A stretch of DNA of 5,304 bases from Methanosarcinales archaeon. Lineage in GTDB: Archaea > Halobacteriota > Methanosarcinia > Methanosarcinales > Methanosarcinaceae. Positions 1-5,304 of the stretch are shown piece after piece. The stretch is from contig JAAXQB010000122.1 in NCBI GenBank assembly GCA_012329085.1, positions 1-5,304 of the forward strand, written 5' to 3'. The stretch's first letter is position 1; every line of letters starts with the position of its first letter. The translations under genes were made by a program, and so were the position numbers. The notes under the pieces were generated by a model. It was given only the letters and a program-made list of their open reading frames with translations. It ran no database searches and had not been told where the DNA came from.

Positions 1-848
1 TCATGTTTATGACTTTATTCCATTAAAACAAGGATTGAAACTAATTCCTCTTTTATTATTTTAGACGATTCTTTCATGTTTATGACTTTATTCCATTAAA
101 ACAAGGATTGAAACCGAAATCCCAACACGAGAGAGAATATACGATTTCTATGTTTATGACTTTATTCCATTAAAACAAGGATTGAAACTGAAAAATCATC
201 TCGATCTTTTATCAATGTTTTTCCGTTTATGACTTTATTCCATTAAAACAAGGATTGAAACTATTTTCCTGCCAATAGAAAGGACTTGTATATATTGTTT
301 ATGACTTTATTCCATTAAAACAAGGATTGAAACATAACACCCGAGCCTTCAGCTATAATTTCAATATTGTTTATGACTTTATTCCATTAAAACAAGGATT
401 GAAACCATACCTCCTCTTTCGGTTGTTAAAGAACTAAAGAAGTTTATGACTTTATTCCATTAAAACAAGGATTGAAACTTATAGCATTGAATATATTAGT
501 CTCGGCTGCATCCAGTTTATGACTTTATTCCATTAAAACAAGGATTGAAACCATAAGCACGGAAATAAGGGCGTCCTTTCCATGAGGGTTTATGACTTTA
601 TTCCATTAAAACAAGGATTGAAACTATATATTACATTTGTATATGATTTCATTTTTTAAAAAAGTTTATGACTTTATTCCATTAAAACAAGGATTGAAAC
701 ATTTTATTGTCGGGCTGAACGACGGCAATGGAAGTATCGTTTATGACTTTATTCCATTAAAACAAGGATTGAAACAATATTAATGCAAATCGTGAGACCG
801 CACACGATGAAGTTTATGACTTTATTCCATTAAAATAAGGATTGAAAC
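1..848 (+). CRISPR. CRISPR array (type III-B-like repeat), leader-distal part, 12 repeats
   Basis: Twelve 37-bp direct repeats start at 5, 78, 152, 225, 297, 369, 442, 515, 588, 664, 739 and 812. Each begins GTTTATGACTTTATTCC and ends AAGGATTGAAAC. The first eleven are identical. The eleven complete spacers are 36, 37, 36, 35, 35, 36, 36, 36, 39, 38 and 36 bp and all differ. Bases 1-4 are the end of another spacer, so the array continues to the left. The terminal ATTGAAAC matches the common 8-nt crRNA 5' handle, and the only degenerate repeat is at the right end. Both point to transcription left to right with the leader outside the window. The repeat has only about 3 bp of internal complementarity (TCC/GGA), so it is essentially unstructured, as is common for type III-B-associated repeats. 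The neighbouring cmr genes suggest that a Cmr complex uses these crRNAs after processing by a Cas6 encoded elsewhere. Confidence 0.98.
812..848 (+). repeat. Degenerate terminal CRISPR repeat
   Basis: This last repeat differs from the other eleven by one change: T instead of C at position 836, repeat position 25. No further copy follows within the window. Decay of the terminal repeat is typical of the end far from the leader, and it supports the left-to-right orientation of the array. Confidence 0.93.
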
Positions 849-1142: not shown

Positions 1143-1892
1143 ATGGATGCAGTGATTGAATTTTTTATTGAAGATTTTATTGGAATAATAATAATAATAT
1201 CCAATATCATCAGTTTTAGTATAGGACGCTTTAAAAGTAAAAATATTGATGTGAGTATGAATATTGATATTGATGAAACGGAAGAAGAAAAACAGAAGCA
1301 TGCAAAAAAAGGAATAATAATAATAATATCACAATACAAAAAAACAAAATTAATGAAAGAAGAAGATATAAAAAATGCATTAAATCAAAAAAAGTATGAA
1401 ATGTTTGATTTGGAAAATAGCAATCTTGGACATAATATAAAGTCTATATTAACACATTCTACAAAATTAAAACATTGTTGGATTGTTGGGAGTTATGTAA
1501 AAGATTCAAAATCAATCACCTCAAGTTCTATTAATTTTATAGAAATACTTATTGAATATTTAAAACAAGAAAAAAACTTGCAATGCACATTTCATTACGG
1601 TAAACAATATGCCATTCCTATAAGTAATGATGCTTTAATTTGCAAGAAATCGTATAAGCTAACCAATGATATTTTTATAGAGGCAAAAGAAGATTATAAT
1701 TTAATACCAAAAGATATTATTGTTGATGTGACTGGTGGAACAAAAAGTATGAACTTAGGACTCATTTTGGCATCATTACATAAAGATAAAGATTTACAAA
1801 TAATTGGCAGTGACTATGATTTGAATGGGGATGTTATAAGAGATAAGTCTCGTTCAATTAGAATTCATTTCAGTCCGAAAATAAAAAAATGA
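1143..1892 (+). CDS. Membrane-anchored CARF effector (TM-CARF, Cam1-like)
   Basis: The 249-aa product has two parts. Residues about 5-28 form one hydrophobic helix with five isoleucines in a row (15-19), then basic R29, K31 and K33, predicting an outside N-terminus and a cytoplasmic body. An acidic linker (about 34-56) leads to a CARF fold: first strand GIIIIISQY (57-65), second strand HCWIVGSY (111-118), and the diagnostic DVTGGTKSM (195-203) followed by a long helix and QIIGSDYD (219-226). CARF domains bind cyclic oligoadenylates made by Cas10. In Cam1, a single N-terminal helix plus CARF domain oligomerises and depolarises the membrane when cA4 binds. No nuclease, HEPN or protease domain is visible, so the membrane helix is the likely effector part. 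The ATG at 1143 has only a weak TGAGA ribosome site (1131-1135). Starting here keeps the whole helix. The CARF assignment is firm; equivalence to Cam1 is inferred from architecture. Confidence 0.87.
   Translation: MDAVIEFFIEDFIGIIIIISNIISFSIGRFKSKNIDVSMNIDIDETEEEKQKHAKKGIIIIISQYKKTKLMKEEDIKNALNQKKYEMFDLENSNLGHNIKSILTHSTKLKHCWIVGSYVKDSKSITSSSINFIEILIEYLKQEKNLQCTFHYGKQYAIPISNDALICKKSYKLTNDIFIEAKEDYNLIPKDIIVDVTGGTKSMNLGLILASLHKDKDLQIIGSDYDLNGDVIRDKSRSIRIHFSPKIKK
1182..1330 (+). repeat. Two identical 20-bp ATA-rich direct repeats inside the CARF gene
   Basis: The same 20 bases, GGA followed by five ATA codons and TC, occur at 1182-1201 and 1311-1330 in the same reading frame. Both encode GIIIIIS, first in the membrane helix (residues 14-20) and again in the first CARF strand (57-63). 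Each is a five-unit trinucleotide microsatellite. Slippage would add or remove isoleucines without changing frame, and recombination between the copies would delete 129 bp (43 codons) in frame. Confidence 0.85.
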
Positions 1893-2075: not shown

Positions 2076-3179
2076 TCACCGGTAACTATCTACCATATGC
2101 CCATAACCAACCGCAGTTTTTGCACCAATCCCATAATCCAATAATGCATTTTTTAAGTATTTTTCCACAATACTTAAAATATTACTATTTTGTTCTTTAA
2201 ATTTATCATTATCAAGTATAATATTATCTTTATTTTTTATACCTATCATAAATCTAAAAGTTGTATCTTTAACTGTTAAGAAAAAAATAGGATTTGGATT
2301 TTGATAATCTGTAGGAAATTCAGTTTTTCCATAATAATCAGGATAAAGAACATTCATTACATCAGGTTCTATTTTTGGAATTTCCATAGGAAAAACATCA
2401 AAAAATATTATTTTTCCTTGCATACTTTCATTATAAAAACTATCTTTTGGACATCCAAAAATATTACAAAATAATTGATTTTCAAGTGCTCGTTTTTCTG
2501 CATTTTTCAAATCGATTTGATTATTTTCGTCTTGTGCAAACTTTTCACCAATAATATAATTTCGCACCACTCCTTTTATAGCACTTCCAGGAATATACGG
2601 AATTCCATATATATGGTGCAAAGTCATTGAAACTTCATACACAGATTCATTTCCTAAACCTATTACCATTCGCCAATCTGGTTTAAGGATAAATTCTGAA
2701 AACTCTAAATTTAATTTTTTTACAACATCATTATAATAATTATCGGAAATGTTTGTAATAAAAGAATTTGAAAAATTTGTTTTAATCTGATAGATTATTT
2801 TATTTCTATCTGTTTTAAAAAATTTAAATTTATCACCTTCAAATCGTGCCAACTTATTAAATTTTAAATTAAAATTATCAACATCTTTAAAATTGTTAAG
2901 CACTTCTATTGTGTCTTTTGGAATTTTTGTTTTGGATATATCAAAACTATCTGTGTGATTTTCTTCTGATTTTTTAGATGTTGTTTGAATTATTTTTAAA
3001 TTTTTTGCATAATTTTTATTATTTTTATATACAATATCAAATTCAACTTTATCATTTTTAGAAGGTGGATTCCCTCTAAAACTACTTTTATCAAAACAAA
3101 CATCTCCCATTCCTTCCCTCTTGATATATCCACTTCCAGTCTTTGAATTATAATTTTTAATTTTTCCTTTTTCACGCAT
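2076..3179 (-). CDS. cmr6: Cmr6 RAMP (Cas7-like) subunit with N-terminal cold-shock-like domain
   Basis: The 367-aa product is longer than a typical Cmr6, roughly 230-300 aa. Residues about 170-362 carry Cmr6 hallmarks: GLGNESVYEVSMTLHHIYG (174-192), IPYIPGSAIKGVVR (193-206), GKIIFFDVFPME (255-266), and the C-terminal glycine loop GIGAKTAVGYGH (350-361). Cmr6 caps the Cmr backbone near the 3' end of the crRNA. Residues 4-64 look like a cold-shock OB fold: GKIKNYNSKTGSGYI (5-19, matching the GxVKWFNxxKGFGFI pattern), GDVCFDKSSF (25-34, matching DVFVHFSAI), then NDKVEFDIV (42-50) and NYAKNLKI (56-63). Nucleic-acid-contacting aromatics are partly kept (Y10, Y18, F29); others are replaced. A polar linker (about 65-95) joins the parts. 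The ATG directly follows the cmr5 stop (TAAATG) and has an AAAGGAAG ribosome site, so this start, and hence the extra domain, is well supported. Cmr6 identity is strong; the cold-shock assignment is by pattern. Confidence 0.93.
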   Translation of the reverse strand: MREKGKIKNYNSKTGSGYIKREGMGDVCFDKSSFRGNPPSKNDKVEFDIVYKNNKNYAKNLKIIQTTSKKSEENHTDSFDISKTKIPKDTIEVLNNFKDVDNFNLKFNKLARFEGDKFKFFKTDRNKIIYQIKTNFSNSFITNISDNYYNDVVKKLNLEFSEFILKPDWRMVIGLGNESVYEVSMTLHHIYGIPYIPGSAIKGVVRNYIIGEKFAQDENNQIDLKNAEKRALENQLFCNIFGCPKDSFYNESMQGKIIFFDVFPMEIPKIEPDVMNVLYPDYYGKTEFPTDYQNPNPIFFLTVKDTTFRFMIGIKNKDNIILDNDKFKEQNSNILSIVEKYLKNALLDYGIGAKTAVGYGHMVDSYR

Positions 3180-3590
3180 TTAATCTTCTTCCTTTAATCC
3201 TTCTGAAAATCTTCTGAGCCAATTAAAAAATGCAAGCACTTCAATAGTTAAAGCATGATATTCTTGAGAATTGAGTTGGACAACCCCATCTAATAGACTT
3301 TTTAAATCTGATACGGTTTTAAGTCCATAGTTTTTGTATTTTTCATCCATTTTTAACCATGTAACAATACTATCACCAACTTCCCTATACACTCCTTTCT
3401 CTTTATCTTTTTTAGAAAATAAAAAAGCAAGTGATGCCCCCAATCCATTCGTTTTTACTAACATTGGAAAACTTTTAACATGAGAACTATATATATTTTT
3501 TAGATCTTTAGAAATTTTATTTGCACAATCATAAGCACATTTTGCCCTACCTTGCCCTATACCTTTAATTACACTTTTATTATTGCTCAT
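3180..3590 (-). CDS. cmr5: Cmr5, small alpha-helical subunit of the Cmr complex
   Basis: The 136-aa length is normal for Cmr5. Family motifs are clear: GRAKCAY (14-20), FPMLVKTNGLGASLAFL (41-57), and YHALTIEVLAFFNWLRRF (111-128). Cmr5 (Cas11 class) forms the helical inner filament that runs along the Cmr4 backbone and helps hold the crRNA-target duplex; it has no catalytic role. The start codon overlaps the cmr4 stop by 4 bp (ATGA) and has a TGGAG ribosome site 9 bases upstream. The stop abuts the cmr6 start with no gap. This packing indicates translational coupling in the order cmr4-cmr5-cmr6. Nothing is unusual in the protein. Confidence 0.97.
   Translation of the reverse strand: MSNNKSVIKGIGQGRAKCAYDCANKISKDLKNIYSSHVKSFPMLVKTNGLGASLAFLFSKKDKEKGVYREVGDSIVTWLKMDEKYKNYGLKTVSDLKSLLDGVVQLNSQEYHALTIEVLAFFNWLRRFSEGLKEED
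3188..3195 (-). promoter_or_regulatory. Ribosome binding site of cmr6
   Basis: The minus strand reads AAAGGAAG here, inside the end of cmr5. The AGGA core is 10 bases before the cmr6 ATG. It fixes that start and therefore places the cold-shock-like domain within the translated protein. Confidence 0.8.
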
Positions 3591-4543
3591 TTTTTATCGC
3601 TCCATGTCTCTACTTTTGCAATACCTTTTCCAATTGTTGCATTTCCTCCAATCTGAATAACATCAGGAACATTTTTTTCAAAAAAGTCCATTAATATTTC
3701 TTCCTCACTTTGAGAATTAGTTTTTGCAAATCTGCCTTTTTCTTTATTAAATATCGGTGTAGTCAAAACAAGTGAATACATAACTGTTTCAGCAGGCAAA
3801 TATTCCTCTGTAAATAAAGCACCTGGTTCAACAGTGCCAGTTTCAGGTTTTATTTTTATTCGTGTAATTACCTCTGTGGAATGATTTACAAAATCCCTAA
3901 AATCATTATTTGAAAGAATAACCAATTTATTATTAATTTCAGATATATCTATGACATTGCTTATAAATTCGGCAATTTTTTTTATGTTTTTCTCATGAAT
4001 CTCAAATGCATATTCTTCTAATATAATATTTTCATTTATCTCTAAGTATTCTTTATTTGCAATTATACATTTATTTTTATTATCTTTGGAATTCAATAAA
4101 TCATCTAATGGAATTTCATCAAAGAACAATGAATCTTTTGAAATGCCATTAGTATTTTTGCATAACTCCAAATCTGCTTTAAATCTTTCTAATACCATTG
4201 GACAGGTAATCCATGCAAATACACCTTTCATTGATTTTATAGGAAATAATAAAATCCGTGCATCTGTAAAACCTAATGCACCTGCATGCCCATCTCCTTG
4301 TTCAGAACCAAAACTAAGAGAAATTGTATTATCTTTATTAGAACTATTTGCTATTTCTCCATTTTTCATTTTATTTTCAAATATATCTCTTAAGCACCCT
4401 TTCACCCCAGATGCTTCTATTTTAGGAAAGCTTGTATGTCGTTCTCTTTGTATTGGCATATCTACTATTCCTAATTCAGTTTCACTACCTGCATGAAGTG
4501 GTGTTTTTACAATTATAAAAAACGGTTTTGCTATTTTATACAT
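3587..4543 (-). CDS. cmr4: Cmr4, Cas7-type backbone RNase subunit
   Basis: The 318-aa product shows the Cmr4 signature: TPLHAGSETELGIVDMPIQRE (14-34), then TSFPKIEASGVKGCLRDIF (37-55). SLSFGSEQGDGHAGALGFTDARILLFP (75-101) and CPMVLERF (114-121) follow, with a C-terminal glycine loop IQIGGNATIGKG (296-307). Several Cmr4 copies form the backbone along the crRNA, and each cuts bound target RNA at 6-nt intervals. The aspartate needed for this cleavage in studied homologues (about residue 26) corresponds to D28 in GIVDMP, so the slicer is probably active. The ATG overlaps the end of the upstream nuclease gene by 8 bp and is preceded by AAAAGGAG. The stop overlaps cmr5. Finding cmr4, cmr5 and cmr6 together makes this III-B rather than III-A. 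Confidence 0.97.
   Translation of the reverse strand: MYKIAKPFFIIVKTPLHAGSETELGIVDMPIQRERHTSFPKIEASGVKGCLRDIFENKMKNGEIANSSNKDNTISLSFGSEQGDGHAGALGFTDARILLFPIKSMKGVFAWITCPMVLERFKADLELCKNTNGISKDSLFFDEIPLDDLLNSKDNKNKCIIANKEYLEINENIILEEYAFEIHEKNIKKIAEFISNVIDISEINNKLVILSNNDFRDFVNHSTEVITRIKIKPETGTVEPGALFTEEYLPAETVMYSLVLTTPIFNKEKGRFAKTNSQSEEEILMDFFEKNVPDVIQIGGNATIGKGIAKVETWSDKK
3600..3604 (-). promoter_or_regulatory. Ribosome binding site of cmr5
   Basis: The minus strand reads TGGAG, 9 bases before the cmr5 ATG and within the last codons of cmr4. It supports the ATGA overlap start. Confidence 0.7.
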
Positions 4544-5304
4544 ATTTTGTAACTCCTTTTATTTTATCAAATATTTCATTTAATTTATTTTCATCACTTA
4601 ATATTTTTCTATCTATTAATTTTATATTCATTAAATTAGCACGATTTTGATAAGAATCTTTTATTTGATTATTATTATCTCTTAAATCACTATCCAATGT
4701 AAATAAATACCCATTTACTATTAAACCAAAATCATTTTTTAATGCATATAGTTTATATAGAGTGTCATTCATCAGATTTTTATTATTATCTTTTAATGAT
4801 GTTTTACATTCGATGATATATAATGTATTTTTATGCACAAACACGACATCAAATTCATTTTGAGTTTCTTTTTGTGAAATGTGAATATTTAATCCTATTT
4901 TATTATCTTCTAATTGAATATGTTTTTGTATAAGAGTATATACATATTCTTCGAACCAGCCACCCGTTAGATATTCAATTTCTTTTTTATTAAGAATTGA
5001 TTCTTTTTCAGTGATAAAATTTATTTCTTTTAAAAAACCCATCATTTCTTCATCTAATTGAATTTTCTTTTTATTCCTCTCCCTTCTTAATTCTTTAATT
5101 CTCATCTCAATTTTATTTTCCATAAATTTTTTAAAAAAAGATTCTGTATATGCTACGGCTTTTAATATTTTATTCTCACGAATTATCTTAAAACCATAAG
5201 AAGTTAAATATTCTTCTATTGAGATTCTAAAATTTAAATCATATACTCCATTTTGTAGAGATGGAAAAATTTGTTTATATGTATTTTTACCAATTGGTAA
5301 ATAA
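4536..5304 (-). CDS. card1: Card1/Can2-type CARF nuclease (DUF1887), 5' end missing
   Basis: The reading frame is open to the window edge, so the N-terminus lies beyond 5304. The ATG at 5121-5123 is internal: 60 in-frame sense codons precede it. The 255 visible residues start YLPIGKNTYKQIF, resembling the end of a CARF domain, followed by a basic helical region. The C-terminal part is a PD-(D/E)XK nuclease: YLTGGWFEEYVYTLI (111-125 of the visible part) as in the DUF1887 family, NEFDVVF with D152, and LYIIECKTS with E165 and K167. All expected metal-binding and catalytic residues are present. Card1 and Can2 are dimeric nucleases that cyclic tetra-adenylate activates to cut single-stranded nucleic acids or nick DNA. 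The usual length is near 370 aa, so about 115 residues, including the TGGTK-type CARF motif, are probably off-window. It overlaps cmr4 by 8 bp, an operon arrangement. Can1 (longer, double CARF) is a less likely alternative that the missing end would decide. Confidence 0.9.
   Translation of the reverse strand, partial: YLPIGKNTYKQIFPSLQNGVYDLNFRISIEEYLTSYGFKIIRENKILKAVAYTESFFKKFMENKIEMRIKELRRERNKKKIQLDEEMMGFLKEINFITEKESILNKKEIEYLTGGWFEEYVYTLIQKHIQLEDNKIGLNIHISQKETQNEFDVVFVHKNTLYIIECKTSLKDNNKNLMNDTLYKLYALKNDFGLIVNGYLFTLDSDLRDNNNQIKDSYQNRANLMNIKLIDRKILSDENKLNEIFDKIKGVTKYV
4553..4560 (-). promoter_or_regulatory. Ribosome binding site of cmr4
   Basis: The minus strand reads AAAAGGAG, 9 bases before the cmr4 ATG and inside the end of the nuclease gene. 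It is the strongest ribosome site in the window. It suggests cmr4 can be translated on its own as well as by coupling. Confidence 0.85.

Follow-up and report, generated by a model that had tools for sequence, protein, structure and literature searches.

A cold-shock domain at the N-terminus of the type III-B protein Cmr6 is exchanged with a second small domain and may tune RNA capture at the seed end

The window, by which we mean the whole 5,304-nucleotide stretch of Methanosarcinales DNA analyzed here, carries a run of minus-strand type III-B genes whose ends overlap or abut. A Card1-like endonuclease gene (4536..5303, minus strand; PF09002, E=3.5e-22) lies directly upstream of cmr4 and overlaps its start; its frame is open to the window end, and its 5' part, with the N-terminal portion of the protein, falls beyond it. 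It is followed by cmr4 (3587..4543, minus strand; 318 aa; TIGR02580, E=1.4e-68), by cmr5 (3180..3590, minus strand; 136 aa, without an N-terminal extension; PF09701 over residues 13-131, E=1e-28) and by cmr6 (2076..3179, minus strand). A profile scan of the frames in the window found no cas10/cmr2, cmr3 or cmr1. At the other end lies a CRISPR array (5..848, plus strand) with 12 direct repeat copies within the window at a spacing of 72-76, for which a 37-base unit is our own reading; the repeats end in ATTGAAAC, and the final copy differs by one change (AAAATAAGG). A weakly CARF-like frame (1143-1892, plus strand; TIGR02710, 27.1 bits, below the cut-off of 83.9) adjoins the array on the strand opposite to the cmr genes.

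The 367-aa product of cmr6 matches the type III-B RAMP protein Cmr6 at equivalog level over residues 165-362 (TIGR01898, E=4.1e-44; 151.1 bits versus a cut-off of 51.1), and its gene adjoins cmr5 and cmr4, the neighborhood looked for in a Cmr6. Ahead of the RAMP body are a cold-shock (OB-fold) domain (CSD; residues 1-64, 2988..3179, minus strand) and a linker (residues 65-83, 2931..2987, minus strand; limits set by hand) that is modeled with low confidence (pLDDT <50 at residues 68-78 of the predicted Cmr6 model). A CSD at this position had been proposed in a sequence-only reading, and profile and predicted fold now agree on a true one, which excludes a chance motif: residues 1-70 score 29.8 bits against PF00313, above the cut-off of 27 (the whole protein scores 25.1 bits, slightly below it), and the predicted model of the domain is a five-strand OB barrel like that of CspB. 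The same reading took the CSD to belong genuinely to the protein, and this also holds. A wrong start codon was rejected because an in-frame stop, the TAA of cmr5, immediately precedes the cmr6 ATG. A ribosome-site-like sequence, AAAGGAAG (3188..3195, minus strand; position counted by hand), lies 8 nt ahead of that ATG. The extra N-terminal CSD on the window Cmr6 is therefore confirmed. In 18 diverse CSD rows, G5, G17, I19, V45, F47 and A58 are invariant, and Pfam calls a CSD in 52 of the 62 sequences of set A1, which was used for folding and includes two rows (P0060 and P0077) with the second type of N-terminal domain (B-type) described below.

CSD-Cmr6 is a minority form of Cmr6. Among the best 120 of 2206 homologues (E<=0.001), a list biased to close relatives of the window protein, 44 carry both PF00313 and PF03787 by our own count of precomputed domains, including proteins under archaeal names (Methanofastidiosa, P0032; Heimdallarchaeota, P0063). 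By an iterated profile, the CSD is present in 12 of the 80 best relatives from genome contigs, where one label is weak (L056, E=0.0036) and two loci are nearly identical (L021 and L054); Pfam was run on four of these 12 and agreed for L019, L036 and L042 and not for L021. Among the genome-contig records with CSD-Cmr6 are ones named Brocadia and Loosdrechtia, a Thermotogae bin, several Firmicutes/Clostridia bins and a Bacteroidetes bin. Genomes were also sampled with a Cmr6 profile that does not cover the CSD, in three phylum samples centered on the genomes of loci L016, L012 and L004, in which 18 of 296, 41 of 299 and 18 of 294 genomes scored above the Cmr6 cut-off. Of these 77 genomes, 66 gave a locus and 11 gave none, and all 66 loci were read; each is the best match of its genome, so further Cmr6 copies (e.g., in G005, G015 and G028) are uncounted, and several duplicate genomes or sequences already among L001-L080. 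Our own profile found the CSD in seven of the 66 (L114, L125, L126, L141, L144, L153 and L154), or in four of 63 once L125, L141 and L144, from genomes already known to have it, are removed; Pfam, run on four of the seven, agreed for L126, L153 and L154 and not for L114. The extension thus recurs, as an ordinary part of Cmr6 would, but it does so in a minority of the loci read. Related fusions were seen alongside: a Cmr6-Cmr1 fusion that begins with a CSD and is cut by the locus end (L153:1-2622, minus strand, 874 aa), a second Cmr6-Cmr1 fusion (L150:1201-3564, plus strand, 788 aa), and an open frame of 301 aa (L166:263-1165, minus strand) in which further, unassigned sequence stands behind a good CSD (PF00313, E=2.2e-13); locus L166 was retrieved because an 86-aa frame in it matches the Cmr6 profile weakly.

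To describe the binding surface we compared positions 8, 9, 15, 17, 27, 29 and 30, which we take to be the nucleic-acid binding positions of CspB, across 69 aligned CSDs (58 homologues and 11 loci; CspB numbering). An aromatic residue stands at position 9 in 62 of the 69, at position 15 in 58 and at position 17 in 66, and in RNP2 position 27 is His in 52 and position 30 is Arg or Lys in 44; across the wider set, RNP1 is mostly retained and RNP2 is altered relative to classical CSDs. The window domain, read via P0001, the representative of its cluster, whose letters are identical at all seven positions, carries N8, Y9, S15, Y17, C27, D29 and K30, so that its RNP1/RNP2 surface is aromatic at two of seven positions (Y9 and Y17). 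By these letters its stacking surface appears worn, with most stacking residues lost, and binding, if any, would therefore be mainly electrostatic. The net charge of the P0001 CSD is +8, the top of 74 CSDs (range -2 to +8, median 2), of which 55 are positive and 19 neutral or negative.

The same N-terminal slot holds a different small domain, B, in other Cmr6 proteins. B is also commonly basic (net charge positive in 48 of 56, median 3) and gave no Pfam match in any of the 26 members scanned. An AF2 model of the B-type Cmr6 P0013 predicts five strands that follow the order of those in the CSD, and hhalign aligned B with the CSD over 16 N-terminal columns at 55% probability and, in other alignments, over 37 columns at 70%. 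No convincing PDB match emerged from a profile of B (best E 0.21). The matches listed for fold searches with the B-type model were all filled by the RAMP body, and a search restricted to the B of P0013 returned four proteins including the query, each with a RAMP domain. B was found in six of the 66 sampled loci (L082, L087, L095, L124, L127 and L138).

B also stands ahead of Cmr5 in nine open frames, with good matches in L026, L034, L087, L174, L175 and L179 and weak ones in L008, L089 and L178. Few of these cases are independent: a single genome (G071) is the source of L087, L174 and L179, whose printed start and score match those of L026, while L034 is alike to L175, and L008 to L089 and L178. 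Loci L026, L034 and L008 are named Chlorobium or Chlorobiaceae. Cmr6 carries B too in L026, L034, L174, L175 and L179 and does not in L008. The B-Cmr5 frames lie, for example, at L026:8630-9307, L034:8651-9322, L174:1447-2124 and L175:1498-2169. Two further Cmr5 frames (L018:530-1201 and L027:8037-8708), in loci whose Cmr6 has neither CSD nor B, begin with a CSD-like N-terminus that falls below the PF00313 cut-off in L018 (E=7.4e-4) and is not significant in L027 (0.19).

The N-terminal slot of related Cmr6 bodies has been exchanged between CSD and B. Among 200 Cmr6 (the best 120 proteins of 2206 plus 80 loci), 74 carry the CSD, 56 carry B and 70 carry neither, some of the last being truncated by contig ends. 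Identity between CSD-type and B-type bodies reaches 78.6% (P0011 versus P0077, 276 aligned residues). With the N-terminal domains removed, a quick tree of the 200 bodies requires 45 changes among the three states (shuffled mean 93.4), and its well-supported branches, 49 of 193 inner branches on a tree that includes long branches, force at least 13 changes of the CSD and at least 14 of B. A more careful tree of 38 rows (24 CSD and 14 B), hand-picked after the 200-row tree, pairs the window cluster P0001 with B-type P0013 (support 99/96), such that the nearest body relative of the window Cmr6 is a B-type protein. Forcing the B rows of this tree together was rejected at p ~1e-36, a value that is overstated because the rows were chosen after seeing the first tree; 31 of 500 and 33 of 500 shuffles in the 38-row analysis were equally clustered. 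These trees record changes of state and cannot separate gain from loss of the domains.

We propose that Cmr6 and, in some Chlorobium-type genomes, Cmr5 begin with an interchangeable cassette. A CSD and a hitherto undescribed domain, predicted to have five strands, would replace each other on closely related Cmr bodies, and the swap may tune seed-end RNA capture by type III-B complexes; we give this reading a probability of about 0.45. As the sequence-only reading had it, Cmr6 lies near the crRNA 3' end: according to the available text of PMC8376896 and PMC5965380, Cmr1 and Cmr6 cap the end of the complex that holds the 3' part of the crRNA. In the Thermus thermophilus complex Cmr1/Cmr6 leave this 3' end exposed and the target starts to pair at that site, and earlier work cited in the same source has target binding require both proteins (PMC8376896, available text). 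The part given to the CSD in this proposal, that of an exchangeable RNA-contacting accessory at the Cmr1/Cmr6 end that aids target-RNA capture, seems to us evenly balanced. The linker would tether the CSD flexibly to the RAMP body and hold it beside the crRNA 3' seed, where the target first pairs, and the CSD would there catch single-stranded target RNA or keep the target straight. All 15 genomes that were searched, including 11 that encode CSD-Cmr6, contain a Cmr1, and the CSD is therefore not a stand-in for a missing Cmr1; 70 of the 200 Cmr6 carry neither domain, so Cmr function does not generally depend on the CSD. In favor of RNA contact are the aromatic residues that most CSDs keep at positions 15 and 17, the positive charge of most CSDs and B domains, the sharing of one slot by CSD and B on related bodies and the presence of B on some Cmr5. 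Counted against an RNA-contacting role, judging by residues and charge, are the altered RNP2, the worn surface of the window domain and the 19 of 74 CSDs without positive charge. Of the original OB-fold proposal, fold and placement stand, while the RNA role appears weakened for the window protein and the likely novelty of the fusion is lost, as discussed below.

According to the available text of PMC8376896, a host ribonuclease presumably trims the crRNA 3' end, and since Cmr6 sits at that end, the CSD might instead clamp or shield the protruding crRNA tail and so set crRNA length against trimming. We regard this as unlikely, in that B also occurs on Cmr5, a subunit whose place is not limited to the 3' tail; this argument holds only where B and the CSD have equivalent roles. 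On the same proviso, a second small basic domain in the slot and its presence on some Cmr5 argue for contact with the target RNA rather than only with the crRNA tail, and B would then do the same job as the CSD. The repeated exchange on related bodies, together with the aromatic binding residues missing from the window CSD, would also fit a slot that serves as a protein-docking surface or an anti-CRISPR evasion site, with the OB fold a mere scaffold exchanged because it is attacked; most relatives, however, retain the aromatic residues at positions 15 and 17 and a positive charge, and we consider this improbable. A functionless CSD, brought in by recombination and carried along neutrally, would suit the many Cmr6 that lack it and the strongly worn surface in the window, but is very doubtful given an intact frame and predicted fold, recurrence in bacterial- and archaeal-named records and six residues invariant across 18 diverse rows. 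If the seed-end capture reading is true, a swappable domain of RNA-binding type at the end where pairing starts would give a means to adjust how targets are captured, how sensitive the system is and how well structured targets can be reached, and would be useful for Cmr-based RNA detection.

As a fusion, CSD-Cmr6 is not new. The sequence-only reading had not placed it in characterized Cmr complexes, yet databases and solved structures already hold it: chain H of PDB 9arw is a 376-aa "CSD domain-containing protein Cmr6", also found in 9z7q, 9z7v and 9z7x, and a PDB sequence search aligned 9arw_H to residues 1-362 of the window Cmr6 (E=2.4e-74). For the window Cmr4 and Cmr5, too, the top PDB sequence hits are the Cmr4 and Cmr5 chains of these entries, and 9arw was not among the matches listed in the CSD fold comparison. 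Beyond the known fusion, the present analysis shows that related Cmr6 bodies exchange their N-terminal domains. Among the papers listed from the literature searched, which was poor in subscription papers and bioRxiv preprints, there was no recognizable description of CSD-Cmr6, and, in a search little of which was aimed at exchange, no recognizable report of N-terminal domain exchange in Cmr6; the PDB codes turned up papers on other subjects. In the available text of the papers concerned, "cold-shock" in PMC8376896 refers to a culture step, and "csd" in PMC3150331 and PMC5965380 to Csd1/Csd2.

The 9arw-type Cmr6, compared here by sequence and molecule name as are 9z7q, 9z7v and 9z7x, is like the window protein in joining a CSD (residues 1-66) and a Cmr6 body in one chain. 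It differs in RNP2 (FFH in 9arw, CFD in the window) and at positions 15 and 17, where 9arw has F and F and the window S15 and Y17. Relative to Bacillus CspB (PF00313), the window CSD is fused to Cmr6 and has an altered RNP2; its net charge is positive, whereas that of CspB is negative, and 68 of 69 Cmr6-type CSDs lack CspB position 38. The Cmr6 proteins of Archaeoglobus (3x1l, 9l7c) and Pyrococcus (4w8v), in contrast, have no N-terminal domain, and their alignments begin at window residue 82 or 154, none reaching the CSD. The S1-type OB-fold fusions described for unusual CRISPR variants in the available text of PMC3150331 resemble the window protein in that an OB-fold domain forms part of a fusion in a CRISPR-Cas system, although there the domain is of the ribosomal S1 type and the CRISPR variant a different one.
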